Source of the DNA: Chitinophaga sp. LS1
Lineage (GTDB): Bacteria; Bacteroidota; Bacteroidia; Chitinophagales; Chitinophagaceae
Assembly: GCF_034274695.1 (NCBI RefSeq)
Contig: NZ_CP128362.1
Span: 6,264,501-6,328,500, forward strand
Length of the DNA stretch: 64,000 nt
Reading direction: 5' to 3'
Below, in pieces: positions 19,692 through 52,815 of the stretch; positions within the stretch are counted from its first letter, which is position 1; the number at the start of each line of letters is the position of its first letter. A program made the translations under genes and the position numbers. Under the pieces are notes generated by a model that saw nothing but the letters and a program-made list of their open reading frames with translations, was not told the DNA's origin and made no database searches.

Positions 19692-20737
19692 GAACAGGAT
19701 ATACCACCGGCGCCTGTGCGACTGCCTGTACCAAGGCAGCCCTTACAGCGCTGTTGACTCAGACACCTGTTGAAGAAATTGAGATCACATTGCCACTGGG
19801 TCAAAAGGTATTATTCAAAGTAACCTGTTCTTTTAACAACCTGAATGCAACCTGCACCACGATCAAAGACGGTGGCGATGATCCGGATGCAACACATGGA
19901 GCTACCATCGGAAGCAGGGTTTCATTAAATACAGGTGACGATATCGTTTTTCTAAGAGGCGAAGGTGTAGGTGTAGTCACATTACCCGGTCTGGCCATCG
20001 GTGTTGGCGAGCCTGCGATCAATCCCGTTCCAAGAAAAATGATGCAGGATGCCGTGAATTTTATCCGGCATCAGTACCAGCTCACACAAGGCGTTGACAT
20101 ACAGGTATTCGTGGTGAATGGAGAAGAGATCGCAAAGAAGACGTTGAATGCACGTATCGGTATTATTGGCGGTATATCTATATTAGGTACCACGGGAATT
20201 GTAAAACCATTCAGTGCCTCCGCTTATATCGCCAGTATTACCCAGGGCATCGATGTATCAATTGCCAATGGTTGCGATACCGTAGTGATCAATTCAGGAG
20301 GTCGCTCTGAAAATATATTAAGAAAGCGCTTCGCGCATCTGCCTGAGTTTGCCTTTGTGCAATATGGTAACTGGATTGGTGAAACATTGAATAAAATAAA
20401 AACCACGCCCCTTCGGAAAGTGAAGATGGGGATTATGCTTGGTAAGGCCTGTAAACTGGCACAGGGAGAGCTAGACACACATAGTGGTAAATCCAGCTGG
20501 GATAAACAATTCATAAATGAATTGGCTATGGGGTGCGGGTATCCTCCGGAACAATGTCAGCCTATTCTGGATCTGAACCTGGCACGGAGACTAACAGAAT
20601 TGTTTCCTTTTAATGCGGAAGAACCTTTCTACAAAGCATTGGCAGAACACTGCTATGCGGTATGTAAAGCGATCATCCCTGCCGTAAGACTGGAAATATT
20701 ATTGATTGATGCGAATGATAATATAATTAGCTGGTAG
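19682..20737 (+). CDS. cbiD: cobalt-precorrin-5B C1-methyltransferase (CbiD)
   Basis: 351 residues. MSLRTGYTTGACATACTKA at the start and KDGGDDPDATHGA are CbiD hallmarks; GIGIIGGISIL-like (ARIGIIGGISILGTTGI) and MGIMLGKACKLAQGELDTHS follow. It methylates C1 in the anaerobic route. Its last codons (LLIDANDNIISW then stop) are repeated twice downstream; see the repeat entry at 20692-20836. Confidence 0.93.
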   Translation: MSLRTGYTTGACATACTKAALTALLTQTPVEEIEITLPLGQKVLFKVTCSFNNLNATCTTIKDGGDDPDATHGATIGSRVSLNTGDDIVFLRGEGVGVVTLPGLAIGVGEPAINPVPRKMMQDAVNFIRHQYQLTQGVDIQVFVVNGEEIAKKTLNARIGIIGGISILGTTGIVKPFSASAYIASITQGIDVSIANGCDTVVINSGGRSENILRKRFAHLPEFAFVQYGNWIGETLNKIKTTPLRKVKMGIMLGKACKLAQGELDTHSGKSSWDKQFINELAMGCGYPPEQCQPILDLNLARRLTELFPFNAEEPFYKALAEHCYAVCKAIIPAVRLEILLIDANDNIISW

Positions 20738-20836
20738 TGATGGTTGGATTTATTATTGATTGATGCGAATGACAATATAATTAGCTGCTAGCGAGGTTTG
20801 GAAATACTATTGATTGATGCGAATGATAATATAATA
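20692..20836 (+). repeat. in-frame tandem copies of the cbiD 3' end
   Basis: The segment encoding ILLIDANDNIISW-stop is followed by two further copies at an exact 54-nt spacing (TTGATTGATGCG at 20702, 20756 and 20810). Copies read LLLIDANDNIISC-stop and EILLIDANDNII-stop, both in the cbiD frame. The third copy's stop (TGA 20837-20839) overlaps the ATG of the next gene at 20836. Several of the differences are synonymous (GAT/GAC, TTA/CTA). Confidence 0.9.
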
Positions 20837-21531
20837 TGATTGGATTTTTATTAACAGATTCTATTTTATTAGGAGTACAACATTCTTTTGAACCGGACCA
20901 TATGGCCGCCGTTTCAGTATTAGCATCTGAAAAAGCGAACAACAAACTAAGTCTCCGCAAACTCATCTGGCGATCTTCCCAATGGGCATTAGGACACTCG
21001 GTTTCTTTGATCCTCTTCAGCTTTTTTGCTTTATTACTGAAATCGGCTTTGCCCGTAAATATATCCGGCTATGCAGAAATGGCGGTAGGCCCCGTCATGA
21101 TATGGCTGGGAATTTCCGCCATCCGCCGCAACCACCAGTTAAAGAAACTGATGGCTACCCACAAGGAATTTGCAGAACACGACCACCTGAACAATGCCCT
21201 GCATATTCATGGTAAACAAGGGAAGGAGATCGCCATGAATCCCCTGAGCCGTAGCTTTTGGGTAGGCATGCTACATGGCCTTGCAGGTACAGGTGGCGCC
21301 TGTGCCATCGCCCTCATCCTGGCATCAAAAGATGCAGGTACGGCCATGTGGATCATCGTATTGCAAAGTTTGGGAATCGTTATTGCCATGACCACCTATA
21401 GTTGTGTACTGGCATTTTCCGTATCCCGTTTTATTGAAAGAAATCAGGTGGCGTTCAAATCAATGAATGCGATCGTCGGCCTCTTCTCGATTGGAGTAGG
21501 CTGTGTATGGGTATATAATTGTTTTGTATGA
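20836..21531 (+). CDS. NicO/UreH-like metal permease
   Basis: 231 residues, about six membrane segments. The motif HSFEPDHMAAV (H-x4-D-H) near the N-terminus is shared with Ni/Co transporters, and GHSVSLILFSF and GMLHGLAGTGG are further superfamily blocks. A His-rich cytoplasmic stretch (THKEFAEHDHLNNALHIHG) lies between helices. It probably moves Co2+ or Ni2+; direction is uncertain because this superfamily contains both importers and exporters. Starts at the end of the third cbiD-tail repeat and overlaps the chelatase gene by 4 nt (ATGA). Confidence 0.75.
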   Translation: MIGFLLTDSILLGVQHSFEPDHMAAVSVLASEKANNKLSLRKLIWRSSQWALGHSVSLILFSFFALLLKSALPVNISGYAEMAVGPVMIWLGISAIRRNHQLKKLMATHKEFAEHDHLNNALHIHGKQGKEIAMNPLSRSFWVGMLHGLAGTGGACAIALILASKDAGTAMWIIVLQSLGIVIAMTTYSCVLAFSVSRFIERNQVAFKSMNAIVGLFSIGVGCVWVYNCFV

Positions 21532-22451: not shown

Positions 22452-23134
22452 ATAATTACCTTTTACAGGCAGCTGGCACTGAAAAGAGGTTGAACCTCAA
22501 AAGCGGTCCGAAAGGCCGTAAAAGAGGCCTGCCAATGCCTGTAATGTCCACTCCGGTCATCGGCAATGATCATCGAACACGCGATCTGCTAGGCACAGTG
22601 AAAAATTACTTACTCACTGGCCAACCTGAAATAATATACCAGCGTAAAGCTTCCAAAGCCGCCCTGTCCTTGCTATTTTTGATTGACAGCAGCGGCTCCA
22701 TGATCAAAGACAGGCAGATCGCTTATATCAAAGGAGTCATTGCTCAAACCATTGCGCAGCATCAACACAAACGGCTGCGATATGGCGCAGTAGCCCTTAC
22801 ACAGGGCGATGCACAACTGGTATCACATTATACAACAGACACGACCAGTTTTATCGAAAGTATCGCCCAATTACGGTCAGGCGGCAAAACCAATCTGAAA
22901 GCAGGGTTACAACTAATACAACAAATGAAAACATCCGATAAGACACAACTTTACATCTTCACAGATGGAAAGATCAATACCGGCGGAAGTTTGCAGGAAT
23001 CGGCCCTGTATTTCAAACAACACCTCCGGACTTTATCGGCAACCACTGTTGTCAATATTGAAAGCGGTTTTGTGAAACTGGGTAAGGCTGCTGAACTGGC
23101 AAAAGGTATCGGTGCTACTTACTTAAACTTATAA
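22427..23134 (+). CDS. chlD: ChlD-like VWA domain of the cobalt chelatase, reached by frameshift
   Basis: This frame is open from 22427 (after a TGA at 22424-22426) to 23134 with no ATG or GTG before the conserved sequence; a TTG at 22490 is possible but would drop conserved-looking residues (QNDLNNYLLQAAGTEKR). Then come the ChlD-type PKGRKRG motif and a VWA domain with the metal-ion-dependent adhesion site LFLIDSSGSM, LRSGGKTNLKAGL and IFTDGKINTGG. Fused to the ChlI frame by a -1 shift near 22433 the product is about 535 residues, a normal ChlD-type AAA-linker-VWA protein. With CobN it would complete the three-part chelatase. A real frameshift mutation or a base-calling error in the A run is the alternative. 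Confidence 0.8.
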   Translation, partial: AEKGQNDLNNYLLQAAGTEKRLNLKSGPKGRKRGLPMPVMSTPVIGNDHRTRDLLGTVKNYLLTGQPEIIYQRKASKAALSLLFLIDSSGSMIKDRQIAYIKGVIAQTIAQHQHKRLRYGAVALTQGDAQLVSHYTTDTTSFIESIAQLRSGGKTNLKAGLQLIQQMKTSDKTQLYIFTDGKINTGGSLQESALYFKQHLRTLSATTVVNIESGFVKLGKAAELAKGIGATYLNL

Positions 23135-23209
23135 GAAGTGGTCCATTTTCAAACTGGCAGAATGCATGAACTGGCAAAAGGTATCAGTACTACTTACTTA
23201 AACTTATAA
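23060..23209 (+). repeat. in-frame duplicate of the chlD 3' end
   Basis: The last 24 codons plus stop of the VWA frame (ending ELAKGIGATYLNL) are repeated once, exactly 75 nt (25 codons) downstream and in frame. The copy ends ELAKGISTTYLNL-stop at 23207-23209, 3 nt before the cobU start. The last 42 nt are nearly identical; the upstream half has diverged. Confidence 0.9.
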
Positions 23210-23212
23210 CAG

Positions 23213-23716
23213 ATGATCCATTACATTTCTGGCGGACAAAGGTCCGGCAAAACAAAATTTGCTATGCAGACTGCCTCGCAGCTGTCCCCAAACCCTGTTT
23301 ACCTGGCCACCAGCCGCATCTGGGATACAGAACACCAGGCAAGGATTGAGCTGCATAAACAGGAACGGGATCATCAATGGGAAAATATAGAAGAAGAAAA
23401 AGAAGTAAGTAAACTATCACTGCCCAACAGAACCGTGGTTTTTGACTGCGTCACCCTGTGGCTGACCAACTTCTTCACCGATGCACATTATAACATAGAC
23501 ATCGCACTAAGAGAGGCCAAAGCAGAATTTGACCTATTTGCTGCACAGGAATTTAATCTCATCATCATATCCAACGAAATCGGTATGGGCGTTCACGCAG
23601 AGACTGAAATCGGCAGGAAGTTCGTTGACCTGCAGGGATGGATGAATCAATATATCGCACAAAAAGCGGATAAGGCAACTCTGATGGTATCAGGACTACC
23701 TATTACAGTTAAATAA
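23213..23716 (+). CDS. cobU: adenosylcobinamide kinase / phosphate guanylyltransferase (CobU)
   Basis: 167 residues, family-typical. It phosphorylates adenosylcobinamide and adds GMP to give AdoCbi-GDP. IHYISGGQRSGKTKFAMQ is the P-loop; YLATSRIWDTEH, RIELHKQERDHQW (candidate guanylylated His region), VVFDCVTLWLTNFF and IIISNEIGMGVHAE follow. Three degenerate copies of its 3' end separate it from cobT. Confidence 0.93.
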   Translation: MIHYISGGQRSGKTKFAMQTASQLSPNPVYLATSRIWDTEHQARIELHKQERDHQWENIEEEKEVSKLSLPNRTVVFDCVTLWLTNFFTDAHYNIDIALREAKAEFDLFAAQEFNLIIISNEIGMGVHAETEIGRKFVDLQGWMNQYIAQKADKATLMVSGLPITVK

Positions 23717-23862
23717 AACTGGCAACCCTGATAATATCAGAACCACCTTCACAGTAACAAAACTGCCAAGGCAACCCTGATAATATCAGAACTACCACCT
23801 CAGTAAAAAAACCGAAAAGGCAACCCTGACAATATCAGAACTACCCATTATAATTAATCAGA
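23674..23862 (+). repeat. tandem copies of the cobU 3' end
   Basis: The cobU end (ATLMVSGLPITVK-stop) is echoed by three copies beginning GGCAACCCTG at 23721, 23770 and 23819 (gene copy 23674; spacings 47, 49, 49). Each encodes a similar tail with its own stop: ATLIISEPPSQ, ATLIISELPPQ and ATLTISELPIIINQT. The last runs into the cobT start (ATGA-type overlap with its TGA at 23865-23867). These copies are not in the cobU frame. Confidence 0.9.
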
Positions 23863-23863
23863 C

Positions 23864-26763: not shown

Positions 26764-26907
26764 CGCTAAAGCAAAGATGTACAAGCCTGTAATGCTCTAC
26801 GCCCTGACGTCACAAAAGTAAAGCTGTACAAGGCATAATGATTTATGCCCTGACCTCACAAATGCGGAGCTGTACAAGGCAGTAATGATCTACTCCATAT
26901 CCACAAA
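26764..26907 (-). repeat. tandem copies of the cobN 3' end
   Basis: On the minus strand the cobN end (TTTGTGGATATGGAGTAG) is followed by copies beginning TTTGTGA at spacing 45, 46 and a more worn TTTAGCGA at 46 (plus-strand anchors about 26902, 26857, 26811, 26765). Shared parts include GCATAA/GCGTAG in stop-like positions and the spacer ATCATTA-CCTTGTACAGCT. The copies fill the convergent gap between pduO and cobN. Confidence 0.85.
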
Positions 26908-29900
26908 CATACTTTGCAGCTTTTCCAGCGTCTCCGGTTTTGGCGTCTGCCACATTCCCCGTTGAATAGCTTCCAACATACGTTCTGTCATATCCTTCAA
27001 AGCCCACGGATTTGCCTGTTCGATGAACTGACGATTCGCTTCATTGAACAGGTATTCCTGGGTAATCCCTTCATACATAAAATCATCTACCATATTAGTC
27101 GTCGCATCATAAGCAAAGAGATAATCCATAGTAGCTGCCATCTCAAATGCCCCCTTATAACCATGGCGCTTCACACCAGCAATCCACTTCGGATTCACCA
27201 CCCTTGAACGATATACTTTCAGCAACTCTTCTTTTAAACTCTTTATACGCGGCGTCTCCGGACGTGCATGGTCTCCAAAATAAATAGAAGGTTGCTCTCC
27301 TTTGATAGTTTCCACCGCATTTGCTAAGCCTCCCTGGAACTGGTAATAGTCATCCGAATCGAGAATATCATGCTCCCTGTTATCCTGATTATGCATCACG
27401 ATTTGCAGATCAGATAAACGCTTTTCAAATACCTCATGCGCAGATTCACCTGTGCGGTCAGCACCATAAGCATACCCACTCCAATTGATATAAATTTTAG
27501 CAAGGTCTTCCCTCGTCTGCCAGTTCTTTTCATCTATTACTGCCTGCAACCCTGCGCCATAAGCACCTGGCTTCGAACCAAAAACCCTGAAAAGAGATCT
27601 TTTATGTGCCTTGGTTTCATCCAATCCCTTATTGAGCCATTCCTGCTTTTCAGCGAGATAGCGTTTGCGGATAGGATTCTGTTCCAACGGTTCATCCAGT
27701 AAAGCCACCTTTTCTACCACTGCATTCAACAAGGAGATCACATCCGGAAATGCATCCCTGAAAAACCCTGAAATACGTAGCATGACATCGATGCGTGGCC
27801 TTCTCAATTGAATAAGCGGAATGATCTCAAAATCAGACACCCGCCTGTTAGCCGCCTGCCATACGGGTTGTACCCCCATAAGAGCCAGTGCCTGTGCAAT
27901 GTCATCTCCACCTGTACGCATGGTACTGGTACCCCATACAGAAAGCCCTATAGATTCAGGATAATCCCCCTGCTCCTGCATGTAACGACTGATGATAAGG
28001 TTCGCGCTTTTTACCCCCAGTGTGTAAGCGGCCTGTGTGGGTATAGCCCGGACATCTACAGAATAGAAATTTCTTCCTGTTGGCAATACATCCATACGAC
28101 CACGTGTAGGTGCGCCGGAGCTACCACTGGGAACATAACCAGCGTCTAAACCGTGTAAGAGGTTGGTGATTTCCTCCGTAGTACGTTGAATCTTTGGTAA
28201 GGTATGAGTAAGGATATTGTGACAATAAGCTTTGGTCGCTGGAAGATGGTAGTCTTCGCCTTGCAGGATATGATGACCACTCAGCATCCTCTCACCTTTC
28301 AAAAGACCTTCCCCATCCAACATCCCCATACCCTTCAGCATCTCTTTCACAACCCCCTCCAACACCTCCACTGCATCCCCCCTGTTCCTACACCCCCTAA
28401 ACAACAAATGCTCACTTTTAAAAGCCATCTCATAATCCCCTCCCAAAGGATCAAATCCTAACCCCATCTCCTCAGCCGGCACCTGCGTAATCCCCTTCTG
28501 CCCCGCCACAGGCACCCTATGCAATGCTATCAGCAAATCAATCAGCTGCTCATCCACTGGTGCCTTCCCCAAAATATGCAATCCATCCCGGATCTGCGCC
28601 TCTTTCAATTCACACAAATACCCATCCAGCTTCAACAACAACGTATCCATATCAGAAACCGCTGCCTGCAGATCTGTTTCCAGATCCGCCTCCTTCACCA
28701 ACTGTGTGATCTGCGCACGAATCACCGCCGTACGCTTCGGATCCACACTAAACGCTTCATAATATTCATCAATCAAATGTTCCAGCTTAGTCAACGTACC
28801 ATAATTCTCCGCTCTCGTCATGGGCGGAATCAGGTGATCTATAATAATAGCATGTGTCCTGCGCTTTGCCTGCGTTCCTTCCCCCGGATCATTCACTATG
28901 AACGGATAGAAATGCGGAACAGGACTTAACAACACAGCCGGGAAACAACTCTCCTTGCTCAATGCCACACTCTTTCCCGGCAACCATTCCAGGTTTCCAT
29001 GCTTACCACAATGAATCAAAGCATCTGCTTTGAACACCTCATTCACCCAACAGTAATAAGCAAGGTATCTATAAGTAGGCGGTAAATCAGGCGAGTGGTA
29101 AATAGCCTTCTCATCCTGATTATAACCGCGCGCAGGCTGAATACTCACGAAGACATTCCCCAACAAACACCCTGGAATAATAAAATCCTCTTCCTGTGAA
29201 GGCCCCCATTGCTGAAGGATCTTCTCTTTAAGCAATGGTGATAACTGCTCAAAATATTCCTGAAACCGATCCTTGTCTATACTAATCTGATAAGGACGAT
29301 AAAGCGTAGTATCCGTATCATTCGTAACATAATGCGTGATCAGCCCGATCAACTCCCCGCTGTTAGCAGGAATATAATCTCCCGTATCATACCCTGCTGT
29401 TTTCAACGCATGCAGGATCTCCACAATACTCGCAGGTGTATCTAATCCTACCCCATTTGCCAAACGACTATCCTTATTTGGATAGTTCGGCATAATAAGG
29501 GCAATATGTTTATCTTTTTGTTCCTTCTTACCAAGCTGTATCCAATTATTTGCAAAAGCCACCACAAAATCACACCCTTCCTCATGCGTACTATATTGCA
29601 GAATATCTGAATCCGTCAACACGTCCTTGCCCATAGAAGATTTAAAAGAAATAGCCGTCGTAATAATGCGACCATCTATCTCCGGCAATGCAATATTCAT
29701 CGCCACATCTACTGGTGTCAGACCAAATAGATTCTGCTCCCATACCTCTTTTGTACAGGCAGCAAAGATGCCCTGTATAACAGGTACATCAAGATTATCA
29801 AATAAGAAACTTTCATCCTTATCCATAGACTTAATTGAAAAGCTGGTCGTGTTGATCAACACTTTTACCTTTCCTTTCAATAAAGATTCAAGTTCCTGTA

Positions 29901-34429: not shown

Positions 34430-34505
34430 AAATGGTTTTCATTCCCCGTTGGAGAATTCCCTCTTTCATGAATGTTGTATTAGGTACCTGATGGAAAGAA
34501 TTTTT

Positions 34506-36379: not shown

Positions 36380-37141
36380 ATGGAAACAATCACCCAAAAT
36401 TACCGATATAAATATATTCGTGAAATGCCTTGTGGAGATTACGAAACAGAAGGCGAACCGGAAACAACCATCTTTCCTTCCATCTTATACGACACTGCAA
36501 AAGATGGATGCCACCGTCTTCTCGGCAAAGTCGCGCTGATAGAGGGCGGAGATACTGGCCTTGGCCGTGCCATTGCCGTACAGTTTGCCAAAGAAGGCGC
36601 GGAAGTTGCTATCCTTTTCAATGATGATGGCAGCCAGGCCAGAGAGACAGCAGACATGATCAGGGAATATGGCAAACAAGCACTTTTACTTTCCTGTAAT
36701 GTAACAAGTGAAGATGGTTGCAAACTAGCTGTCGATAAAACGATTAGCAGGTTTGGAAAGATCGATATCCTTGTAAACAATGCAGCACAGGAAAATCTTG
36801 TTCCGCAATATTATCTCGTCAATCATGCCATCCCACACCTGGCAATAGGGAGCAGTATTATCAATACTTCAACCCAGGAAGCCATTATCGACTTTACCAG
36901 GGTCTTGTCTTCCCAATTAATTAAAAAAGGGATCAGGGTGAATGGAGTGGCGCCAGGCGCAATATGGGATTCATCTGTCTATGACATAGCCGACCCTGAC
37001 TATGGGAAAGATGCCCTTTTCGGACATGCCGCTCACCCTGCAGACATTGCACCTTGTTATATTTTTCTGGCTTCCGAAGATGCGGCCTTTATTTCCGGGG
37101 AAATATTGCATCCGAACGGAGGAATTGCAATCACCAGTTGA
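36380..37141 (+). CDS. short-chain dehydrogenase lacking the catalytic YxxxK (YghA-like)
   Basis: 253 residues versus roughly 285-300 for YghA-type SDRs. The NAD(P) site is present although altered (LIEGGDTGLGRAIA, residues 53-66), as are the NNAAQ motif (133-137) and the C-terminal RVNGVAPGAIW and ASEDAAFISGEILHPNGG. But SSIINTSTQEA (158-168) passes straight into IIDFTRVLS: the segment that normally holds Y-x-x-x-K is missing, and a second gap follows QENLVPQ (137-143). Both gaps keep the reading frame. The product is probably a non-catalytic remnant or pseudoenzyme. A 24-nt repeat array derived from its 3' end follows. Confidence 0.75.
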   Translation: METITQNYRYKYIREMPCGDYETEGEPETTIFPSILYDTAKDGCHRLLGKVALIEGGDTGLGRAIAVQFAKEGAEVAILFNDDGSQARETADMIREYGKQALLLSCNVTSEDGCKLAVDKTISRFGKIDILVNNAAQENLVPQYYLVNHAIPHLAIGSSIINTSTQEAIIDFTRVLSSQLIKKGIRVNGVAPGAIWDSSVYDIADPDYGKDALFGHAAHPADIAPCYIFLASEDAAFISGEILHPNGGIAITS

Positions 37142-37245
37142 AGAGAAACGATGATGTTCTGTTAAGGAGACACCATGATGCCCGGTTGGAGGCATCATGA
37201 TTTCCAGTTAATGAAGCACGATGATGCCCCAGTTAAAATTTGATC
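37131..37245 (+). repeat. short tandem copies of the SDR 3' end
   Basis: The end ATCACCAGTTGA is followed by four degenerate units with GTTRA/GTTGG anchors at 37161, 37185, 37207 and 37232 (gene copy 37137; spacings 24, 24, 22, 25). Typical unit ATGATGCCCSGTT-AAGG. Three of the four units retain TAA at the stop position. The last unit ends within 13 nt of the ligD start at 37249. Confidence 0.8.
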
Positions 37246-37248: not shown

Positions 37249-40092
37249 ATGAGCTTAGCTAAGTACAAGCAAAAAAGAACTTTTACAAAGACACCTGAAC
37301 CTACAGGTGGCAAGAGTGATAATAAGGAATTGCATTTTGTAATTCAGAAGCACGATGCTTCGCATTTGCATTATGATTTCAGACTGGAAATGAAGGGTGT
37401 ACTTAAAAGCTGGGCGGTGCCAAAAGGGCCTTCAATGGATCCGAAAGTGAAAAGACTCGCCATGATGGTAGAGGATCATCCTTATGATTATAAAGATTTT
37501 GAAGGTGTGATCCCAGCCGGCAACTACGGCGCAGGTACGGTGATTGTCTGGGATGAGGGGACCTATGTTCCGCAGATAAGCGGACTCAATAAAAAGGGGT
37601 GGGAAAAGGAGTTGTTACATGCCATCGAAAACGGAAAGCTTCATTTTATTTTGCAGGGAGAAAAGCTGAAAGGGGAATTTGCCTTGGTGAAAACACACGG
37701 CAGAGGGGAGAATTCATGGTTATTAATGAAGATAAAGGATGAATATGCCGCAACAGCGGATGTGACAAAGAAAGAGAAATCGGTTTTATCCGGCAGGACA
37801 CTTAAGCAGGTGGAGAAAGACCCGGAGATGGTTACCACACATCCTCGCGTTAAAAAATCCGTCCCTCAGCCTACGGCGAAAGATCTTGCCACTCATCCTC
37901 CCCTTAACGAAATCGCTACTCATCCTGCATACGACTTCTCTACCCTCCTTTCAAAGGGCAAAAAAGCCCCCATGCCCAAAGAAATAAAACCCATGCTGGC
38001 CACCCTCACTGAAAAACCATTTGATAAAAAAGACTGGCTCTATGAAATCAAATGGGATGGCTACAGGGCCATCAGCTATATAAACAAAGGCAATGTAACC
38101 ATCCTCTCCAGGAACCAACTTTCCTTCAACGAAAAGTTTGACGTGATTGCTGATGCCCTAAAAGAATGGAATACAAAAGCTATTATCGATGGCGAAATAG
38201 TTGCATTGAATAAAAACGGTAACCCTGATTTCCAGGCGCTACAAAATTACCTGAAGACGGGCAAATCCGTACAACTTGCTTATTATGTCTTTGACCTGCT
38301 ATGGTATGATGGCAAGGATATCACCCAACTACCTTTACTGGAAAGAAAGGAAATATTACAACAGGTATTACCACAGAATAATAAACTGATACGGTACAGT
38401 GAACACATCACAGGAGGAAATAGTCAGGGCACCGCATTCTTTAAAGCCGCTTTGAAAAAAGGACTGGAAGGCGTAATGGCTAAAGATGCGGATAGTACCT
38501 ATTCTTTAGGCCGCCGCACGGATAGTTGGCTAAAAATTAAAAACAATTTGCAGACGGAAGCGATCATCTGTGGCTATACCGTCGGCCGGAATAGCCGGAA
38601 ACATTTTGGTGCGTTGATATTAGGAAAGTATAAGAATGGCGTATTGAATTATATAGGTCATACAGGAGGAGGATTTGATACGAAGTCACTGAAAGAATTG
38701 TATGAAAAATTCCAACCTTTGATAACAAACGAATTTCCCTTTAAAATAAAACCAAAAACCAATATGCCGGCTACCTGGATAAAGCCTGAGTTGGTATGTG
38801 AAGTGAAATTTGCCGAGGAGACAAGAGAAGGCATTTTAAGACAACCGATTTTTCTTGGTTTGAGAGAAGATAAAAGTGCGAAGAAGGAGAAGAAGGAAAA
38901 AGTAGTGGCGGCACCAGTTTCTGATAAAAAAACAAAGACAGTGAAAAAGACAGCTAAACCCGAAAAAGTAGTAGAAAATTTGACAGCGAAAAAAGCAACA
39001 CCCCCAAAAGCTACTACTAAAAAAGCTACCGCAGGAAAGACCTCCGCTAAGAAAGCTGCTGCCTCAAAAGCAACACCACCTGTCCCCAAGGCCACCTCTA
39101 AGCCTTCCACCTCTCCTAAAAAATCAACGCCCAAACCAACTTCAAAAAAAAAGCCCACTACCCTCCTCCTTCCGGAGGATCAAAACGAAGTCGAAATCAA
39201 AATAGACGGGAAACTCCTAAAATTCACCAACCTTGACAAACTCTACTGGCCAGATGAAAACATCACCAAACGAGACATGCTCAACTACTACGCAACCATC
39301 TCCGATACCATTCTCCCCTACCTCATCGACCGCCCGCAATCCCTCAACAGATTCCCCGACGGTATCAAAGGCTTCCACTTCTATCAAAAAAATGTAGAAG
39401 ACAAAGTCGCCGACTGGATCCAAACCTTTCCCTACGTCAGCGAATCAGATGGCGAAACAAAAAACTTCCTTGTCTGCAAAGACAAAGCCAGTCTACTTTA
39501 TATGGCCAACCTTGGTTGCATTGAACTCAACCCATGGCATAGCCGCATTCAAAAACCAGACAATCCAGACTACTGTCTCATCGACCTCGATCCAGACACC
39601 AATGACTTCAATGAAGTCATTCAAACCGCACTCGAAATAAAAAAATTACTCGATGATATAGGCGCTGATTCCTACATCAAAACCTCCGGCTCTACCGGCA
39701 TGCACATCCTCATTCCTCTTGGCGCAAAGTATACATTTGATCAATCCCGTATGCTTGCAGAACTCATCGTCCAGGTCATCAATAAAAGACTACCTGACAT
39801 TACAAGTATTGAACGCTCTCCTAATAAGCGAAAGGGAAAAATCTACTTAGATTTCCTTCAAAACAGGCAAATCCAAACCATGGCAGTTGCCTACTCTTTA
39901 AGACCCAAACCAGGCGCCACCGTATCTGCCCCACTAAAATGGGAAGAGGTCAAAAAAGGATTAACAATTAAACACTTTGATATCTTCAATATGCCTGATA
40001 GAATTGCTGAAACAGGGGATTTACTGAAAGGAGTATTAGGAAAAGGAATCAATATGCAACAGGTATTAAAAAAACTACAAAAATTCATCTGA
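37249..40092 (+). CDS. ligD: DNA ligase D (phosphoesterase-ligase-polymerase)
   Basis: 947 residues from ATG 37249 (MSLAKYKQKR); the frame is open slightly further up but only via TTG. Domain order: 3'-phosphoesterase ~20-180 (HFVIQKHDASHLHYDFRLE, AVPKGPSMDP), ATP-dependent ligase ~245-545 with adenylated Lys268 in YEIKWDGYR, a Lys/Ala/Pro/Thr-rich linker ~555-640 resembling histone H1 tails, and an archaeo-eukaryotic-primase-type polymerase ~647-945 (LDKLYWPDENITKRDMLNYY, DRPQSLNRFPDGIKGFHFYQ, LIDLDPD, IKTSGSTGMHILIPLG). It acts in non-homologous end joining with Ku, but no ku gene lies in this window. The PE-Lig-Pol order is the one seen in many Bacteroidota. Confidence 0.95.
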   Translation: MSLAKYKQKRTFTKTPEPTGGKSDNKELHFVIQKHDASHLHYDFRLEMKGVLKSWAVPKGPSMDPKVKRLAMMVEDHPYDYKDFEGVIPAGNYGAGTVIVWDEGTYVPQISGLNKKGWEKELLHAIENGKLHFILQGEKLKGEFALVKTHGRGENSWLLMKIKDEYAATADVTKKEKSVLSGRTLKQVEKDPEMVTTHPRVKKSVPQPTAKDLATHPPLNEIATHPAYDFSTLLSKGKKAPMPKEIKPMLATLTEKPFDKKDWLYEIKWDGYRAISYINKGNVTILSRNQLSFNEKFDVIADALKEWNTKAIIDGEIVALNKNGNPDFQALQNYLKTGKSVQLAYYVFDLLWYDGKDITQLPLLERKEILQQVLPQNNKLIRYSEHITGGNSQGTAFFKAALKKGLEGVMAKDADSTYSLGRRTDSWLKIKNNLQTEAIICGYTVGRNSRKHFGALILGKYKNGVLNYIGHTGGGFDTKSLKELYEKFQPLITNEFPFKIKPKTNMPATWIKPELVCEVKFAEETREGILRQPIFLGLREDKSAKKEKKEKVVAAPVSDKKTKTVKKTAKPEKVVENLTAKKATPPKATTKKATAGKTSAKKAAASKATPPVPKATSKPSTSPKKSTPKPTSKKKPTTLLLPEDQNEVEIKIDGKLLKFTNLDKLYWPDENITKRDMLNYYATISDTILPYLIDRPQSLNRFPDGIKGFHFYQKNVEDKVADWIQTFPYVSESDGETKNFLVCKDKASLLYMANLGCIELNPWHSRIQKPDNPDYCLIDLDPDTNDFNEVIQTALEIKKLLDDIGADSYIKTSGSTGMHILIPLGAKYTFDQSRMLAELIVQVINKRLPDITSIERSPNKRKGKIYLDFLQNRQIQTMAVAYSLRPKPGATVSAPLKWEEVKKGLTIKHFDIFNMPDRIAETGDLLKGVLGKGINMQQVLKKLQKFI

Positions 40093-40944: not shown

Positions 40945-43137
40945 ATGAAGAACAGTCCACAAACCCTCCATCTACCAGTCCACATTACCCCTGGTAGTCC
41001 ATATCCATTAGGCGCAACCCCTGATGATAAAGGCGTGAATTTCGCCATCTACGCCGACTATGCAACCAGTGTAGACCTTTGCCTGTTCAACAGCCCCTCA
41101 GACCCAAAAGAATCGCAAAGAATCAAAATGACTGAGCGGTTTCATCAGGTATGGCACGTGCATGTATCCGGCCTGAAACCCGGTCAACTGTACGGTTACC
41201 GTGTAAATGGCCCATACACTCCACAGGAAGGTAGCCGTTTCAATGAAAATAAATTACTCTTAGATCCATACGCCAAAGCCATATCAGGCACTATCAACTG
41301 GCACGACTGCCTCTTTGGCTACCAAATAGGCAGTCCGGAAGAAGACCTGAGTTTCAGCGACGCTGACAGCGCTCCGTATATTCCGAAATCGGTAGTGGTC
41401 GATGATGCCTTTGATTGGGAAGACGATAAATTTCCAAAAATCCCCTACAATGCCACCATCATCTATGAGATGCATGTAAAGGGCTTTACAAAAATGCATC
41501 CGGACATTCCTGAAGAGATCCGCGGAACATATGCGGCCATCGGCCATCCGGTTACAATCGACTACCTCAAAAAGCTAGGGGTAACGGCGGTTGAATTAAT
41601 GCCGGTACATCACTTTGTGGCCGACAGACACCTGGTTGAGAAAGGATTGACTAACTACTGGGGCTATAATACCATTGGGTATTTTGCCCCTGATGCGCGG
41701 TATTCTTCTTCCGGTATCGAAGGCCAGCAGGTAACCGAGTTCAAGGAAATGGTCAAAGCCCTTCATAAAGCTGGTATTGAAGTATTCCTGGATGTCGTTT
41801 ACAATCATACTGCCGAAGGTAACCATATGGGACCGACACTGAGCTTCAGAGGAGTGGATAATTGTAGTTATTACCGGCTTACTGAAGATAAACGATACTA
41901 CATGGATTTTACCGGCACAGGCAATACACTGAATGCACAGTTGCCCAATGTACTGCGCCTGATCATGGATAGTCTTCGTTATTGGGTAGAACAGATGCAT
42001 ATTGACGGATTCCGTTTCGACCTGGCGGCAGCATTAGCACGGGAACTACATGAGGTGAACAGCTTGAGTGCTTTCTTTGAAATCATTTACCAGGATCCGG
42101 TGATCAGTCAGGTGAAGTTGATTGCTGAACCCTGGGATGTGGGAGAAGGTGGCTATCAGGTAGGAAAATTCCCTCCTGGATGGGCGGAATGGAATGGTCT
42201 ATATAGGGATTGTATCAGGGGATACTGGAAAGGTGATGATAGTATGCTGGCTGAGTTTGCCCTTCGGTTTACAGGAAGTCCGGATTTGTATGAGGCGGAT
42301 TATCGCAGACCAACGGCTAGTATCAACTTCATTACCGCCCATGATGGTTTTACCCTGCATGACCTTGTCTCTTATAATGGCAAGCATAATGAAAGTAATG
42401 GTGAAGACAACAGGGATGGGGCGAATGTTAATTACTCTTTTAACTGGGGGGCTGAAGGTGACACCAATGATGAAGGCATCAATAATATCCGTGCACAGAT
42501 CAAGCGCAATTTTATTACAACCTTATTCCTTTCACAGGGTGTGCCTATGCTTGTAGCGGGTGATGAATCAGGGAATACGCAACATGGGAATAACAATGCT
42601 TATTGTCAGGATAATGAAATTTCATGGTTGGATTGGGAGAAACAGGATCCGCAATTACGGGAGTTTACGAGGAATATCATTAAGTTACGAAAGAGTCATT
42701 CTGTTTTTGCGAGGCCGGGATGGTTTCAGGGAATTCCGATTAAGGGAGTGGAAGATATTGGATGGTTCCTGCCGGATGGTGCGGAGATGCAGGAGGATCA
42801 TTGGAAAGAATATTATGCGAAATCAATTGCTATTTACTTGAATGGAAAAGGGTTGAGGTGTGTGAATGAAGTGGGTGAAAAGATGGTGGATGATTCTTTT
42901 TATGTTATTTTCAATGCGCATCATGATGCAATTGAGTTTGCGTTGCCTACAGAAAAGTATGCGAAGAAGTGGCAGCGGATCCTGGATACCAGTGTATGGA
43001 AGACGGAAGATCAAAATACGTATGTGGCTGGGAATAAGGTGCAGGTGCAGGGACACTCTATTTCGTTATTCATTCATAAAGAGGATTTGCTGCCTGTAGC
43101 AGGATTGCCGGTTCCGGAAGTTACGCATGCTAAATAA
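40945..43137 (+). CDS. glgX: glycogen debranching enzyme (GlgX-like isoamylase)
   Basis: 730 residues from ATG 40945 (MKNSPQTLHLPVHITPGSPY). An N-terminal carbohydrate-binding beta domain (GVNFAIYADYATSVDLCLF) precedes a GH13 barrel: DVVYNHTAEGNHMGP, DGFRFDLAAALARE (nucleophile Asp), KLIAEPWDVGEGGYQVGKFP (acid Glu), FITAHDGFTLHDLVSYN. It cleaves alpha-1,6 branches of glycogen or limit dextrins in the cytoplasm. The C-terminus GLPVPEVTHAK is repeated once after the stop. Convergent with the metallophosphatase. Confidence 0.93.
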   Translation: MKNSPQTLHLPVHITPGSPYPLGATPDDKGVNFAIYADYATSVDLCLFNSPSDPKESQRIKMTERFHQVWHVHVSGLKPGQLYGYRVNGPYTPQEGSRFNENKLLLDPYAKAISGTINWHDCLFGYQIGSPEEDLSFSDADSAPYIPKSVVVDDAFDWEDDKFPKIPYNATIIYEMHVKGFTKMHPDIPEEIRGTYAAIGHPVTIDYLKKLGVTAVELMPVHHFVADRHLVEKGLTNYWGYNTIGYFAPDARYSSSGIEGQQVTEFKEMVKALHKAGIEVFLDVVYNHTAEGNHMGPTLSFRGVDNCSYYRLTEDKRYYMDFTGTGNTLNAQLPNVLRLIMDSLRYWVEQMHIDGFRFDLAAALARELHEVNSLSAFFEIIYQDPVISQVKLIAEPWDVGEGGYQVGKFPPGWAEWNGLYRDCIRGYWKGDDSMLAEFALRFTGSPDLYEADYRRPTASINFITAHDGFTLHDLVSYNGKHNESNGEDNRDGANVNYSFNWGAEGDTNDEGINNIRAQIKRNFITTLFLSQGVPMLVAGDESGNTQHGNNNAYCQDNEISWLDWEKQDPQLREFTRNIIKLRKSHSVFARPGWFQGIPIKGVEDIGWFLPDGAEMQEDHWKEYYAKSIAIYLNGKGLRCVNEVGEKMVDDSFYVIFNAHHDAIEFALPTEKYAKKWQRILDTSVWKTEDQNTYVAGNKVQVQGHSISLFIHKEDLLPVAGLPVPEVTHAK

Positions 43138-43182
43138 CCCGTTCCGGGCTTACCTGTTCAGGAAGTAAAGCGTTCCATGTAA
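43102..43182 (+). repeat. in-frame duplicate of the glgX 3' end
   Basis: The glgX tail GLPVPEVTHAK-stop is followed, 45 nt (15 codons) later and in the same frame, by GLPVQEVKRSM-stop (stop TAA about 43180-43182). The nucleotide match is strongest over GTTCMGGAAGT. This is one clear degenerate copy. Confidence 0.75.
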
Positions 43183-44798: not shown

Positions 44799-45034
44799 AC
44801 ATCTTATTTAAGTGTTGTTGCGCCATCACCTTCTATATCGGTTATCGCTGATGTTTTTATACCATTACTTTCTATATCAGTTATCGCTGAGCCTTATTTA
44901 AGCGTCGTTGCGCCATCACCTTCTATATCCGTTATCACCGATGTTTTTATACCATTACTTTCTATATCAGTTATCGCTGAGCCTTATTTAAGCGTCGTTG
45001 CGCCATCACCTTCTATATCCGTTATCACCGATGT
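44799..45034 (-). repeat. in-frame tandem copies of the DUF5689 gene 3' end
   Basis: Reading leftward, the tail TSVITDIEGDGATTLK-stop (stop at 44984-44986) is followed by two 90-nt units with stops at 44894-44896 and 44804-44806, exactly 30 codons apart and all in one frame. Each unit reads GSAITDIESNGIKT then TSVITDIEGDGATTLK-stop (TSAITDIEGDGATTLK in the last), so each contains two half-repeats. The first copy's tail is identical to the gene; in the second three of four changes are synonymous. Confidence 0.95.
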
Positions 45035-46489
45035 TGTACTAAGTTGTTTATTATTCTGCGCCCTTGCCTGTACCCACTTACCCAACGATACATTATACAC
45101 TCCACCCAGCATATTAAATATCCCCAAATCCGCCGTATTATACGACAGCGCCAATGTATTAGACCCCTGACGATAAAATGGCTGTTCTTCCAGCGTGATC
45201 GGATTGATTATATCATAAAAATCGGTATTCGCAATGCGATAACCTTTCGCCGGTGGCCCAGCTGTATACAAACTACCACCCGTCGACACCCACATCACAT
45301 CTACCGGTTTTGAATCTACCGTTACCACTGTATCCTGGAATACCGCCATCCCAAATGCATTCCCACTATTCGCCATCAAACCTGTCGTCGCTGTACCAAA
45401 TCCATCTCCACCCGTAGTCGTATAGTCAAATGTACGTACCCAGTTAGCACTACTGATATCTGTAGATTTGGACCCATTTATTTTTTTCCCGATACCTCCT
45501 ACATAAAAGAACGTTCCTTTCGCTGCCTTACCAGCATAAAGATTAAACTTGTAAGAACGCTTTTCACCTGTCGCCCACCCCTTGGATGGATAACCTGTAG
45601 GCGTGCTGGCATTGGCATTGTTCGTCACCACGAGCGCAAATGGCGTAGCTGCAAAGTCAATATCCCTCGTCGCCATCATCTGCACATATTCATAATTACC
45701 ATCCGCACCACTTGCATCCGACATAAAACCAGTGATCAACACGGGTGCTATAGAAATTTCTGAACTCAATACAGTGACATCAGCAGCAGTGCGCATACGG
45801 AACACAGGCGTATTATCCGCACCTATAAACACAATACCATAGAAGTTGGCGCTCACCGGCGCAGTGATATTCGCAAACGCACTGGTATCTGCTGTACGTA
45901 ACAACAAATTTCCAAAACCATCATTCAATACTTTATCGCCTTTCAATACATCTCCTTTTGCAGGCAATGGATCGAACCCACCTTTTACAACTACCGCCAA
46001 TGTACTTTCAAAATCACCCGGATTCGCCAATATTGCCGCAGTCGTAACACGGTTTACCGGAATCGTATTCCCGGAAGAGATCTTCCTCATTTTCGTCAGT
46101 GATACCCCGGTCAGTTCCAACATGCCATCTGTTTTTTCCAATACTGCCCCCTGCACATCGATCAACACAGAATCTCCCGGCACATAACTATTCGCTACAT
46201 CCCCCAATTGAATCGCGATCCCTCTCAGCTTTGACAAACGACGCGCATCCTGCACAATCAGCAGTCCGGCTGGCAAATTGCCTCCGCTATGATCTGATAC
46301 GACCATCGCTGCTATACTCGTAGAGCCAAGCATGTTTTCTTTGCTGAGTGTAACGGGTTTTGACTTATACAGATTCCTGATATCGTATATCGAAATATAA
46401 GGGCTGATGGTTCCACCGGGATAGGTCTCACTTTTTTCACAACCCCAAATGAATAATATGAGTGGTAAGTATACTAAGAATTTCTTCAT
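44984..46489 (-). CDS. DUF5689 surface lipoprotein
   Basis: 501 residues with a lipoprotein signal (LILFIWGC, Cys17). The DUF5689 domain fills about 30-235 (TISPYISIYDIRNLYKSKPV, GLLIVQDARRLSKLRGIAIQ, GDSVLIDVQGAVLEKTDGML). The second half (~240-500) is another beta-rich region including a choice-of-anchor-like segment (GKAAKGTFFYVGGIGKKING). Proteins of this kind are found next to SusCD pairs and exported nucleases or phosphatases and are thought to bind substrate at the cell surface; the ligand is unknown. It lies 18 nt after the SusD-like gene. Its 3' end is repeated downstream. Confidence 0.85.
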   Translation of the reverse strand: MKKFLVYLPLILFIWGCEKSETYPGGTISPYISIYDIRNLYKSKPVTLSKENMLGSTSIAAMVVSDHSGGNLPAGLLIVQDARRLSKLRGIAIQLGDVANSYVPGDSVLIDVQGAVLEKTDGMLELTGVSLTKMRKISSGNTIPVNRVTTAAILANPGDFESTLAVVVKGGFDPLPAKGDVLKGDKVLNDGFGNLLLRTADTSAFANITAPVSANFYGIVFIGADNTPVFRMRTAADVTVLSSEISIAPVLITGFMSDASGADGNYEYVQMMATRDIDFAATPFALVVTNNANASTPTGYPSKGWATGEKRSYKFNLYAGKAAKGTFFYVGGIGKKINGSKSTDISSANWVRTFDYTTTGGDGFGTATTGLMANSGNAFGMAVFQDTVVTVDSKPVDVMWVSTGGSLYTAGPPAKGYRIANTDFYDIINPITLEEQPFYRQGSNTLALSYNTADLGIFNMLGGVYNVSLGKWVQARAQNNKQLSTTSVITDIEGDGATTLK

Positions 46490-51000: not shown

Positions 51001-51480
51001 TATCTTCAGGAAGTAGTTACCATCCGTACCGGAAATAGTGCCGATATTACCGCTTTTAATACGCACATTCACCCCCACCAGCGGTTCCCCCCGCTCGTCT
51101 GAAATACGCCCCCGTATCACAATGTCCTCGGGTTTGCGGGTTACGATAAATGTATTGCCGGTTTGCGTGAATACATAACCTGTATTTGCCAGGGCAACAT
51201 GCAAAATTTCCTTTGCTGTGGCATCGTAGATCTTAATGCTGACCCGTACATTAGCATCTACATCATTAGGACTATAATTTATGAGATAACGGCTATTTTT
51301 CTGGATGTACTGAAATACATCTTTCAGAGGCTGGTTGCTCACCGTGAGGTCCAGCTTCTTTTCAATGGTTTGTGCATTGATGTTGGTCAGCCATGCTACA
51401 AAGAAGAATAATACCCATACAGAAAGTTTGGGGTAGGAAATCCCTAACGGGCATCCCCGCTTTTTTGTACATTTGTCCAT
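48010..51480 (-). CDS. SusC/RagA TonB-dependent transporter with STN domain
   Basis: 1156 residues. Signal peptide to ~37 (FFFVAWLTNINAQ), secretin/TonB short N-terminal (STN) domain ~40-105, carboxypeptidase-like beta-sandwich ~118-200 (GRISDERGEPLVGVNVRIKS), plug ~205-345 with the SusC marker ESVTVLKGPGAAALYGQRGA, then a C-terminal 22-strand-type barrel ending LGFNLVIGL. The STN domain allows signalling to a FecR anti-sigma factor, which is the next gene upstream, so import induces its own expression. Partner of the SusD-like lipoprotein downstream. Confidence 0.95.
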   Translation of the reverse strand: MDKCTKKRGCPLGISYPKLSVWVLFFFVAWLTNINAQTIEKKLDLTVSNQPLKDVFQYIQKNSRYLINYSPNDVDANVRVSIKIYDATAKEILHVALANTGYVFTQTGNTFIVTRKPEDIVIRGRISDERGEPLVGVNVRIKSGNIGTISGTDGNYFLKIPGNNPTLVFSFIGYITRQVAVNESQKLDLQMAPDAKALNEVVVTTALGIKREEKGLGYATTVVKGEQLTNALSNNWTDALSGKVAGLNLVRSNAGPTGSNKIILRGENNLNGDNEALIVVDGVVINNGSGRRTGIDGETPYGTGSDNMPADYGTGLNDLNAEDIESVTVLKGPGAAALYGQRGANGAVIITTKAGTPHKRGLGVTFNSNESLEQVNRWPELQYEYGQGLDGAAYYSYGTSADGASTSGTSSAYGPKFDGQMFFQYDPVTQKVGTERTLWRPYTNQLQKFFQTGKTFTNSISVDGGTDKTTARFSFTNVNNDWIVPNTGYKRNTVAMSVNSKISDKLTISSKVNYTNKGSDNLPGSGYGNQSLMYWYIFWQPNANIDWLRDYWVKGQEGRAIKYPFSSYPENPFAVANEFINKTNRNGITGNVQATYNFTKELSLLVRTSIDFAYDQRAQERPYDAGAKLPKGSYRTQNIFSMEASSDFLLKYSKRINEDIEFSATAGGSTLTNNYNKDETRADSLTFPGIFTFSNAAGPLVTMPYRSKYAINSFYGMVTGSFRDYLFLDLTGRQDWTSTLATPDRTTNSGFFYPAANLSFVASEVLHMPKAINFAKVRFSASSVGSGGTTAYLTSYNYSSAGSLYNGGLSAPDLLTNPNLKPLRTITYEVGANVQFLNNRFGIDVAVYRGNTKDQHLKRVVDRASGYTQVLINAGDVRNEGIEIALNTTPVSVKNGFSWSSNVVFSANRNRIMSLADSSVVLRTGPVGGGQIVAKVGGSMGDLYGRGYQRAPDGQVIYDASTGVALLTEDVKYLGNILPKAKIGWTNDFRYKGFNLHLLFDAQYGGVSHSLTHYKMAEQGKLKETLPGRYNGIVGNGVVATTDGKYRKNDVIATDIDEYYRSHYGVDNAEGSVFRTDFIKFREARIDYTFSKGLVKRLGFQRATVGVYGRDLFIWSPWPMFDPEFGTLYGSDILQGFEIGQFPSTRTLGFNLVIGL

Positions 51481-51510
51481 TCATTTTAAAATTTAGCTTG
51501 TACTGAATTT

Positions 51511-51540
51511 TGGCGCCCTGTTACCGCAGGGTGCTTTTTT
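51511..51540. other. hairpin between fecR and susC
   Basis: GCGCCCTG / CAGGGTGC around a short loop, followed on the plus strand by seven T. On the leftward operon strand the A run precedes the stem, so it is not a terminator for the operon; it could end antisense transcription or act as a processing structure between fecR and susC. Confidence 0.4.
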
Positions 51541-52523
51541 TACCTGATAACTATTTGATTGTCTGTAATTGTGTACTGGAAACTGCTCATCAATTTTAAC
51601 TGCTGCATGATGTTTTCGATCGTATTATTCCGGAATGTGGCAGTGTATTTCCTTTTAAATAAGGTGGCATCCTTCACATCAAAGTGAACAGCGTACTTAT
51701 GCTGTAATACCTGTAAGACCTGTTGTAAACCTGCATCCTGGAAAATTAATTCTCCCCTGATCCAGGCGGTTGTAGTGGCAGTGTCAATTTCCTCTTTTAT
51801 AAATGTCCCGTTTCTCTTATCTGCGGTCAATCCCATACCGGCGCTCAAAACGAGTCCTTTTAAGCCGATTTTACCGCTATTTACGTTTACGATGGCAGTC
51901 TGTTCATCTTTATAATCCCTGACGGTAAAAGACGTCCCTAATACCTTTACATTGAGTTGTAGTGACCTTACATAGAATGGTCGTTTGGCGTCTTTGGCAA
52001 TTTCAAAATAAGCCTCTCCTTCTTCTACATATACTATACGTGCGCTATCTTCAAATTCTTCCGGAAAATACAAGGTGGATCCGCCATTAATAGTCACCCG
52101 ACTCCCATCAGACAAGTTGATGGACCCGTGATTACCATCTGCTATACGCATTGTCCTAAAGCGGCGCTCTGCTTTTTGCTCCCAGTTTAATACCCCTTTG
52201 CGTATTAAAAAACTACTCCCCAATAATAACACAAAGATGGCGGCGTAACGGCTGACATTTTTCAACAAAACAGGTTTTAATTTTAATGAAGCCAGTTTTA
52301 CAGCCGGTTTCCTGTTATGCCGGAAGCGAGTCAGTGCTGTATCAATTTCTGCCTCGGGCAACTGATGTGCTATATTATTTACAAATGCATCTACGGGAAA
52401 TAGTTCCGACAATTCCTGTTCAGACAGACCTTCTAATGCCTGCTGCAATTCCTGCTTACCGGCGGCGTCCAATCTGCCTGCCTGATAGTCTTCCAGTCTG
52501 TGTCTGATGTCGGAAATATTCAT
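51540..52523 (-). CDS. FecR-family anti-sigma factor
   Basis: 327 residues. A cytoplasmic N-terminal part (~1-85), one membrane span at ~93-110 (AAIFVLLLGSSFLIRKG), then the FecR domain (GNHGSINLSDGSRVTINGGS, YVEEGEAYFEIAKDAKRPF, VLGTSFTVRDYKDEQTAIVN) and a C-terminal STN-like DUF4974 domain (LIFQDAGLQQVLQVLQHKYA). It relays the substrate-bound state of the SusC transporter to the ECF sigma factor encoded upstream. The space to the sigma gene holds a 51-nt repeat array. Confidence 0.93.
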   Translation of the reverse strand: MNISDIRHRLEDYQAGRLDAAGKQELQQALEGLSEQELSELFPVDAFVNNIAHQLPEAEIDTALTRFRHNRKPAVKLASLKLKPVLLKNVSRYAAIFVLLLGSSFLIRKGVLNWEQKAERRFRTMRIADGNHGSINLSDGSRVTINGGSTLYFPEEFEDSARIVYVEEGEAYFEIAKDAKRPFYVRSLQLNVKVLGTSFTVRDYKDEQTAIVNVNSGKIGLKGLVLSAGMGLTADKRNGTFIKEEIDTATTTAWIRGELIFQDAGLQQVLQVLQHKYAVHFDVKDATLFKRKYTATFRNNTIENIMQQLKLMSSFQYTITDNQIVIR

Positions 52524-52595
52524 TTAAGAGACGTCGTTTTATATAAGAACGGCGAATTAAAATGGGCACCGACAGGAAAGTAGGTTAAGGAATTG

Positions 52596-52815
52596 TTACC
52601 AGAAAAAATTCATGACGGTAGGTGCTCCCAATGGGAATGAAACCCCTTACCTGATAAAATTCATGACGGTAGGTGCTCATCAATGGGAATGAAACCCCTT
52701 ACCTGATAAAATTCATGACGGCGGGTGCTCCCAATGGGAATGAAACCCCTTACCTGATAAAATTCATGACGGTAGGTGCTCCCAACGGGAATGAAACCCC
52801 TTACCAGGTAAAAAA
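52596..52815 (-). repeat. 51-nt tandem array continuing the ECF sigma 3' end
   Basis: Plus-strand anchors TTACC at 52801 (gene stop), 52750, 52699, 52647 and 52596 give spacings 51, 51, 52, 51. On the minus strand the gene ends TTTTTTACCTGGTAA and each unit ends with the related ATTTTATCAGGTAA. The first two units stay in the sigma frame and read GVSFPLGAPTVMNFIR-stop and GVSFPLGAPAVMNFIR-stop. It fills most of the otherwise empty 52524-52800 gap before fecR. Confidence 0.9.

Follow-up and report, generated by a model that had tools for sequence, protein, structure and literature searches.

How do the ends of unrelated genes come to be repeated in the gaps that follow them? The question is raised by a 64,000-nucleotide stretch of the soil-type bacterium Chitinophaga sp. 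LS1 (C1:6264501-6328500 of genome G000, one contig of 8.67 Mb), here called the window, for which an earlier note had reported that the last nucleotides of eight genes, stop codon included, recur downstream as tandem echoes. We found repeats at all eight places (Table 1). Comparison with related genomes leads us to regard the arrays, with good confidence, as locally born minisatellites, or variable-number tandem repeats (VNTRs), which would stem from a high rate of short tandem duplication specific to one Chitinophaga clade, followed by a filter of selection. The pattern at 3′ ends is best read as what survives, not what is aimed at.

Eight junction arrays and their history in relatives

The gene-end echo was assessed at single loci by matching the last 100 nt of each gene to its downstream gap and to 500 dinucleotide shuffles of that gap. 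The echo claimed for all eight loci stood at five of them, namely cbiD (score 39), the VWA-domain (chlD-like) gene (43), cobU (30), glgX (15) and the DUF5689 gene (52), with each score matched by 0/500 shuffles. It was not above chance at cobN (score 6, 499/500 shuffles), the short-chain dehydrogenase (SDR) gene (8, 385/500) and the extracytoplasmic function (ECF)-like sigma factor gene (10, 142/500). The arrays at these three loci abut or barely overlap the stop codon and by eye include about 4-15 nt of the gene; their other support comes from Tandem Repeats Finder (TRF; cobN, sigma), length differences between strains (SDR, sigma) and shorter gaps in relatives. The VWA, SDR and glgX arrays are absent from the TRF list for the window and are based on the junctions of relatives, the gene-end test and self-matching, which for the SDR array peaks at lags 46 and 24. 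All eight arrays consist of head-to-tail units within the range of about 10-200 bp that defines minisatellites.

Table 1. Repeat arrays of the window and the neighbouring ligD gene (positions within the window)
Feature	Position	Strand	Description and basis
cbiD array	20691..20835	+	54-bp unit, 2.7 copies, comprising the last 47 nt of cbiD plus spacer; TRF, shuffles
VWA (chlD-like) tail with one 75-nt echo	23070..23209	+	Ends 3 nt before the ATG at 23213
cobU tail with three echoes	23661..23857	+	Spaced 47-49 bp; TRF, shuffles
46-bp-unit array in the convergent gap between cobO and cobN	26768..26893	-	Last few nt of cobN only; TRF
SDR gene end with 22-25 bp units	37134..37236	+	Short gene-end echo CAGTT[A/G]A; ends 13 nt before the ligD call
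ligD (end-joining ligase-polymerase)	37249..40092	+	Neighbour of the SDR array; Pfam LigD_Prim-Pol, LigD_N and ligase domains
glgX (alpha-amylase/CBM48) tail with one 45-nt echo	43093..43182	+	Precedes a terminator-like hairpin; shuffles
DUF5689 tail with 90-bp units	44803..45035	-	Each unit has two 45-nt half units; TRF, shuffles
ECF-like sigma array	52596..52813	-	Four 51-52 bp units, each about 14 nt of gene end plus about 37 nt of no visible source; TRF

Pfam matches in the window identified CbiD, CobU, Cob_adeno_trans, a VWA-domain protein, a short-chain dehydrogenase, LigD, an amylase-type protein with CBM48 (the glgX of the earlier note), DUF5689 and a protein with sigma-70 regions 2/4. 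The name cobN is taken over from the earlier note; Pfam assignments cover the other array genes. Genes were called with a purpose-written, unpublished caller, and start positions are approximate (the ATG at 23213 was missed).

We compared these junctions with those of four relatives. The closest named relative found was [Flexibacter] sp. ATCC 35208 (L095, G040), whose flanking DNA is 99.1-99.7 % identical; it belongs to the same species as the window genome and is hence not independent of it. Genome G070 shares about 93 % DNA identity and also has most of the window arrays, whilst G069 and Chitinophaga silvisoli (L096, G041) each show roughly 75-88 % identity, varying by stretch. The C-termini of orthologues in relatives align with the first copy, and at most compared loci the junctions of relatives are shorter or overlapping and lack these arrays. 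The clearest history is that of cbiD, which overlaps the next gene by ATGA in the array-free C. silvisoli and G069, and has two copies in ATCC 35208, three in the window and many in G070. In the window the final copy extends into the start codon of the next gene, and in all three array-bearing genomes the last copy preserves the ancestral junction. The G070 array (L232 from about 2900) has a higher-order pattern in which two unit types alternate. The gap after cobU measures 147 nt in the window versus 4, 17 and 19 nt in relatives, with four copies in the window and five in ATCC 35208; C. silvisoli is array-free there, with 2 nt to the next start. Downstream of the DUF5689 gene, G069 and C. silvisoli have a 5-nt gap and no array, G070 and ATCC 35208 have a duplicated tail, and the window has one 90-bp unit more than ATCC 35208. 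The sigma array is missing from G069, has a single 51-bp unit in both G070 and ATCC 35208 and four units in the window; in C. silvisoli the gap is longer and lacks the 51-bp unit.

The gap between cobN and cobO is compact in C. silvisoli and G007 and carries other extra sequence in G069. The VWA tail is single in G070; G069 and C. silvisoli have additional sequence of another kind, about 27 nt long. The SDR gap differs in ATCC 35208 and G070 and is compact in G069 and C. silvisoli, and the glgX echo is missing in G070. Junctions were thus duplicated in tandem and then changed by whole units, and the last copy holds the ancestral junction where relatives allow comparison.

Each locus carries its own sequence, as the earlier note had stated in arguing for a process over a mobile repeat. 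Searches of the eight arrays against 800 kb (about 9 % of the genome) returned, self-hits aside, one weak match of the sigma array (E 0.008) and a continuation of the cobN array into cobO, and the cbiD array occurs at one place only in the whole genome. A mobile or dispersed repeat that inserted at gene ends with target duplications and was then amplified is therefore highly improbable: the 37-nt block and 14-nt duplication of the sigma array do look like an insertion, and its weak match is to a dispersed genomic element, but the 800 kb contain no dispersed relatives of the other seven arrays apart from the cobN extension. That element, of about 40-55 nt (TGGTTTTCATTCCCC..TTTCATGAATGTTTTATT), to which the sigma array bears a weak resemblance, occurs at window 34434-34494, at 77050-77144 and 371185-371221 of the 6.1-Mb segment and at 28800-28855 of the 1.0-Mb segment; at several places it lies after a terminator-like hairpin and a run of T.

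Strain variation and distribution across the genome and clade

Copy number was compared between strains, as the earlier note had suggested. The window genome and ATCC 35208, aligned over 77.6 kb (0.58 % mismatch), differed by six internal indels of at least 10 bp, located at five of the eight arrays. Their lengths of 54, 49, 23 plus 51, 90 and 153 bp correspond to whole units (153 bp being three sigma units), the variation between strains by which VNTRs are recognized. Seven further gaps of at least 10 bp were excluded, six in the first approximately 210 bases of the ATCC 35208 contig, which had no BLAST match, and one at its other end. A second region that was not selected for arrays (59 kb, 0.79 % mismatch, ends trimmed to exact 40-base blocks, 0/27 echoed 3′ ends) contained five indels of at least 10 bp, all of them by eye in tandem repeats and three of them intragenic. 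Across both regions (about 137 kb), all 11 internal indels of at least 10 bp between strains more than 99 % identical thus fell within tandem repeats. Two genes (G000:C1:3263076-3268097 and 3305293-3306849) have internal tandem repeats whose lengths in the two strains differ by 162, 48 and 72 bp, each a multiple of three. Faster point change within arrays was also considered and rejected, as divergence was ordinary in the two arrays whose length is the same in both strains (VWA, 0 mismatches in 143 bp; cobN gap, 1 in 145 bp).

Tandem arrays are prone to error in assemblies (PMC6868369), and the earlier note had named artefact as a possible refutation. We give this explanation almost no weight: arrays at the same sites, with divergent copies and different copy numbers, occur in three separate assemblies (G000 and G070, each a single contig, and the draft G040), and G069 and C. 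silvisoli carry arrays at other sites.

A wider scan, also proposed in the earlier note, matched the final 100 nt of every gene to its downstream gap (20 to 400 nt, so that abutting and overlapping genes are excluded) and, as a mirror control, the initial 100 nt to the upstream gap. In 800 of the 8674 kb of G000, a sample that includes the window and hence a region picked for its arrays, 3′ echoes scoring at least 16 followed 23/466 genes and 5′ echoes preceded 5/512, versus 0/466 and 0/512 with shuffled neighbours; some of the weak echoes (score 16-18) may be due to chance. A shuffle of the first 400 kb gave 0/211 for 3′ ends and 2/231 for 5′ ends, and retrained gene calls gave 22/465 and 4/509. 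With the window excluded, 60 kb added and the threshold raised to 20, 12/460 3′ ends and 1/504 5′ ends were echoed (Fisher p 0.0012). By the criterion of the earlier note, a lack of excess over shuffled neighbours, the observation is therefore not refuted. Echo density was uneven, with 1/112 3′ ends in one 200-kb sample (at 3.5 Mb) and 0/27 in the added 60 kb.

The trait is characteristic of one Chitinophaga clade. Strong 3′ echoes (score at least 20) were found at 17/465 gene ends in the window genome, 6/109 in G070, 3/102 in G069, 4/175 in C. silvisoli and 5/40 in 77 kb of ATCC 35208 round the window region. Outside the clade the summed count was 1/1086, comprising six genus members (0/392), eleven loci of close kin (0/67), Flavobacterium (1/43), Hymenobacter (0/108), Dyadobacter (0/214) and the remainder (0/262); the 80 named loci in these comparisons cluster round cobO and are not random samples. 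The lone strong echo outside the clade (L105, Flavobacterium sp. ZT3R18, score 32) shows that the pattern does occur, though rarely, elsewhere in the phylum. None of the three strong echoes of G069 lies at any of the eight window loci, and C. silvisoli lacks the window arrays wherever its junctions are open to comparison; the arrays therefore arise anew.

The position of arrays relative to genes was examined with TRF (period at least 20, window included). The 800 kb of G000 contained 26 wholly intergenic arrays, 15 touching a 3′ end (18 under a looser overlap rule), one at a 5′ end, one touching both and 16 intragenic. Random placement of the 43 non-coding arrays predicts 25.7 intergenic, 7.5 at 3′ ends, 7.8 at 5′ ends and 2.0 at both. 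In a total of 800 kb from six other genus members there were 15 intergenic arrays, one at a 5′ end, none at a 3′ end and three intragenic, so that per 800 kb G000 has 43 versus 16 non-coding and 16 versus 3 coding arrays. Short tandem arrays are thus in general excess in G000, strongly depleted at gene starts and mildly enriched at gene ends. A mechanism dedicated to 3′ ends, one of the options raised in the earlier note, fits poorly with wholly intergenic arrays outnumbering those at 3′ ends and with intragenic arrays being raised as well.

A duplication process that merely prefers 3′ ends or stop regions, for example through transcript ends or break repair with filler, can draw on the twofold excess over random expectation, the 15 to 1 ratio of 3′ to 5′ arrays, the filler sequence at several loci and the 12/28 listed co-directional arrays (gaps up to 400 nt) whose last echo stops 0-6 nt short of the next called start. 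We nevertheless think it unlikely. Intergenic arrays are more numerous and many are intragenic, selection against extra starts would yield the same asymmetry, and the second 60-kb sample had 0/27 echoed 3′ ends yet five tandem-repeat changes. Two related ideas were also set aside. That units take in the start of the next gene was supported at p <0.05 in only 2/28 listed arrays, namely cbiD in G070 (match score 12, p 0.000) and one C. silvisoli array (p 0.045), many spacers being too short for the test; for the VWA spacer, a resemblance to that start is seen by eye only. The data likewise did not demonstrate an enrichment at very short ancestral gaps.

Origin of the arrays

We propose that this clade has a raised rate of tandem duplication, affecting stretches of approximately 20-180 bp, and that whole units would then be gained and lost by slippage or recombination between copies; the change itself is seen in strains. 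A duplication at a gene end would be tolerated, with the first copy holding the upstream tail and stop, the last copy holding the old spacing to the next gene and the intermediate tails being spare. At a gene start, a duplication would add rival start signals and so presumably be removed by selection, as the rarity of 5′ echoes suggests. No aiming at stop codons would be required. The motor is thus probably slippage or unequal recombination, with purifying selection as the filter. Replication slippage, one of three options in the earlier note, is the likeliest motor, and end joining is a candidate for events that carry filler.

Another competing idea holds that the copies are functional, whether as a reserve of C-terminal cassettes, as extensions made by readthrough or as RNA elements for operon tuning. 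The earlier note had stated that copies usually keep the C-terminal peptide and a stop. The stop is indeed kept in 24/26 stop-covering copies (21/25 of those running through it), but echoed stops lie in random frame relative to the gene (11:8:7) and 25/53 copies contain gaps. The single reading frame expected of a cassette or readthrough system was therefore not found, and cbiD has a TGA immediately after its own stop, so readthrough of C-terminal cassettes was not borne out. The spacings given in the earlier note fit our data, but the claim that they are mostly multiples of three did not extend beyond the window: periods of 3′-touching arrays in G000 and C. silvisoli leave remainders 0:1:2 in the ratio 7:4:10, with no excess of multiples of three. 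Mismatches from gene to echo are most frequent at third codon positions (0.172, 0.158 and 0.226 for positions one to three), an excess that could reflect coding constraint, although repeated birth from a constrained gene would give the same.

A structured RNA was also rejected. Among 20 of the 23 echoes (three were dropped for length), 4/20 units fold with z below -2, but so do 7/75 control gene ends, and the mean z of -0.65 versus -0.24 in controls indicates no consistent hairpin. No Rfam family scored above its gathering threshold in the window arrays; the lone match in the window is a cobalamin riboswitch (10415-10615, 115.8 bits) upstream of the cobalamin genes. The arrays do part genes that overlap or abut in relatives, but copy number varies or falls to zero in close relatives. 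Taken together, we judge a function of the copies to be very unlikely, and the arrays are most likely a variant of VNTRs rather than a C-terminal system.

Several observations sit uneasily with local birth by slippage followed by selection. Several first copies lead into sequence of no visible origin, 22-44 nt long at some loci and about 37 nt at sigma, and plain slippage does not give such filler. Arrays touching 3′ ends are twice as frequent as expected at random, and therefore promoter selection or some preference must cover the remainder. In C. silvisoli (320 kb; 9 intergenic arrays, four 3′, one 5′, one both and five intragenic) the classes are near the random expectation of 7.0, 3.1, 3.3 and 1.6, respectively, for the non-coding classes. 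Outside the clade, echoes scoring at least 16 form a low and symmetric background (13/1086 at 3′ ends versus 15 at 5′ ends). Mismatches between echoes are again highest at the third codon position (0.137, 0.108 and 0.187). Not all relatives have short junctions: the cobU gene of G069 is followed by a long, repeat-rich gap that differs from that of the window, and the VWA junction spans 192 nt in G007 and 280 nt in G010, so its ancestral state is less clear. Finally, presence comparisons of mutS1, recJ, xseA and Ku yielded no cause of the raised rate.

Duplications with filler could arise if staggered breaks were repaired by end joining. Proteins resembling Ku and LigD are found in the genus, and the ligD gene beside the SDR array is a possible source of the filler sequence. 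Slippage could also rise where mutS1 or recJ is lost, but loss of a repair gene did not separate the clade in any comparison: Ku and recJ are each present in 9/9 genomes (a list without G070 and G069), mutS1 is above the cut-off in 11/11, and xseA is in 10/11 including all five clade genomes, missing only in G024, outside the clade. A MutS-family match at G000:C1:2291621-2292268 has a frame of 293 aa, compared with 594 aa in ATCC 35208, G070, G069 and C. silvisoli, and from the reading frame this gene may be interrupted in the window genome. The short frame cannot explain the arrays because relatives with the long frame also have them. A heritable, mutator-like change in repair or replication, making short tandem duplications, often with filler, the main form of indel, with a 3′ preference beyond that due to selection, is a more speculative version that we hold to be rather doubtful. 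If true, it would offer a natural system for minisatellite birth and for the uncoupling of overlapping operon genes, and if a repair difference explains the clade's rate it could be looked for in a comparison of few genomes.

Comparison with known repeat systems

Among the matches listed in our literature search there was no paper on such arrays in Chitinophaga. The claim in the earlier note that no described system matches was too strong all the same, since VNTR3239 of Mycobacterium tuberculosis and the tandem repeats of Borgs come close. VNTR3239 (ETR-F), among the mycobacterial interspersed repetitive unit (MIRU)-VNTR loci, consists of lineage-specific tandem units (55 and 79 bp) within an operon junction whose stop and start lie a few bp apart in other mycobacteria, and its copy number differs between strains (PMC2734929). 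The Chitinophaga arrays are likewise lineage-specific tandem units at gene junctions with strain-variable copy number. Unlike them, the VNTR3239 repeats begin 40 bp after the stop, and a gene-end echo does not feature in the description of the locus that we consulted (PMC2734929). MIRUs themselves are sequences scattered at 41 places (PMC2734929), whereas each Chitinophaga array has its own sequence, with no dispersed copies for 7/8 arrays in the 800 kb searched and one weak match for sigma.

Borg tandem repeats resemble the arrays in their recent and independent origin, fast change and occurrence both within and between genes, and are virtually absent from host genomes (PMC9879509). Their units are perfect and strongly A-rich (PMC9879509), whereas the Chitinophaga copies differ, with 0.16-0.23 mismatches per site to the gene. 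The A content of the Chitinophaga arrays is mildly raised (0.354 versus 0.307), and perfect, strongly A-rich units of the Borg type were not found. The TAACTGA repeats of Beggiatoaceae are also intergenic direct repeats, but comprise one fixed heptamer located mostly before start codons (PMC4679880). The conserved hairpin per unit that characterizes repetitive extragenic palindromes and bacterial interspersed mosaic elements (REP/BIME) was not seen in the fold test.

Bacterial minisatellites are usually known as a few typing loci whose origin is lost. The five related genomes compared here show the same junction in its ancestral, one-unit and many-unit states, so that birth, expansion and loss can be traced event by event, and arrays that separate genes overlapping or abutting in relatives represent a simple route to looser operons. 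With minisatellites of bacteria in general the arrays share units of at least 20 bp and copy-number variation between strains (PMC2884548). They differ in their weight among changes: in a comparison of Escherichia coli genomes (segments of at least 20 bp), minisatellites other than palindromic units (non-PU) made up 2-4 % of variable loci (PMC2884548), versus 11/11 indels of at least 10 bp within tandem repeats over about 137 kb in Chitinophaga.

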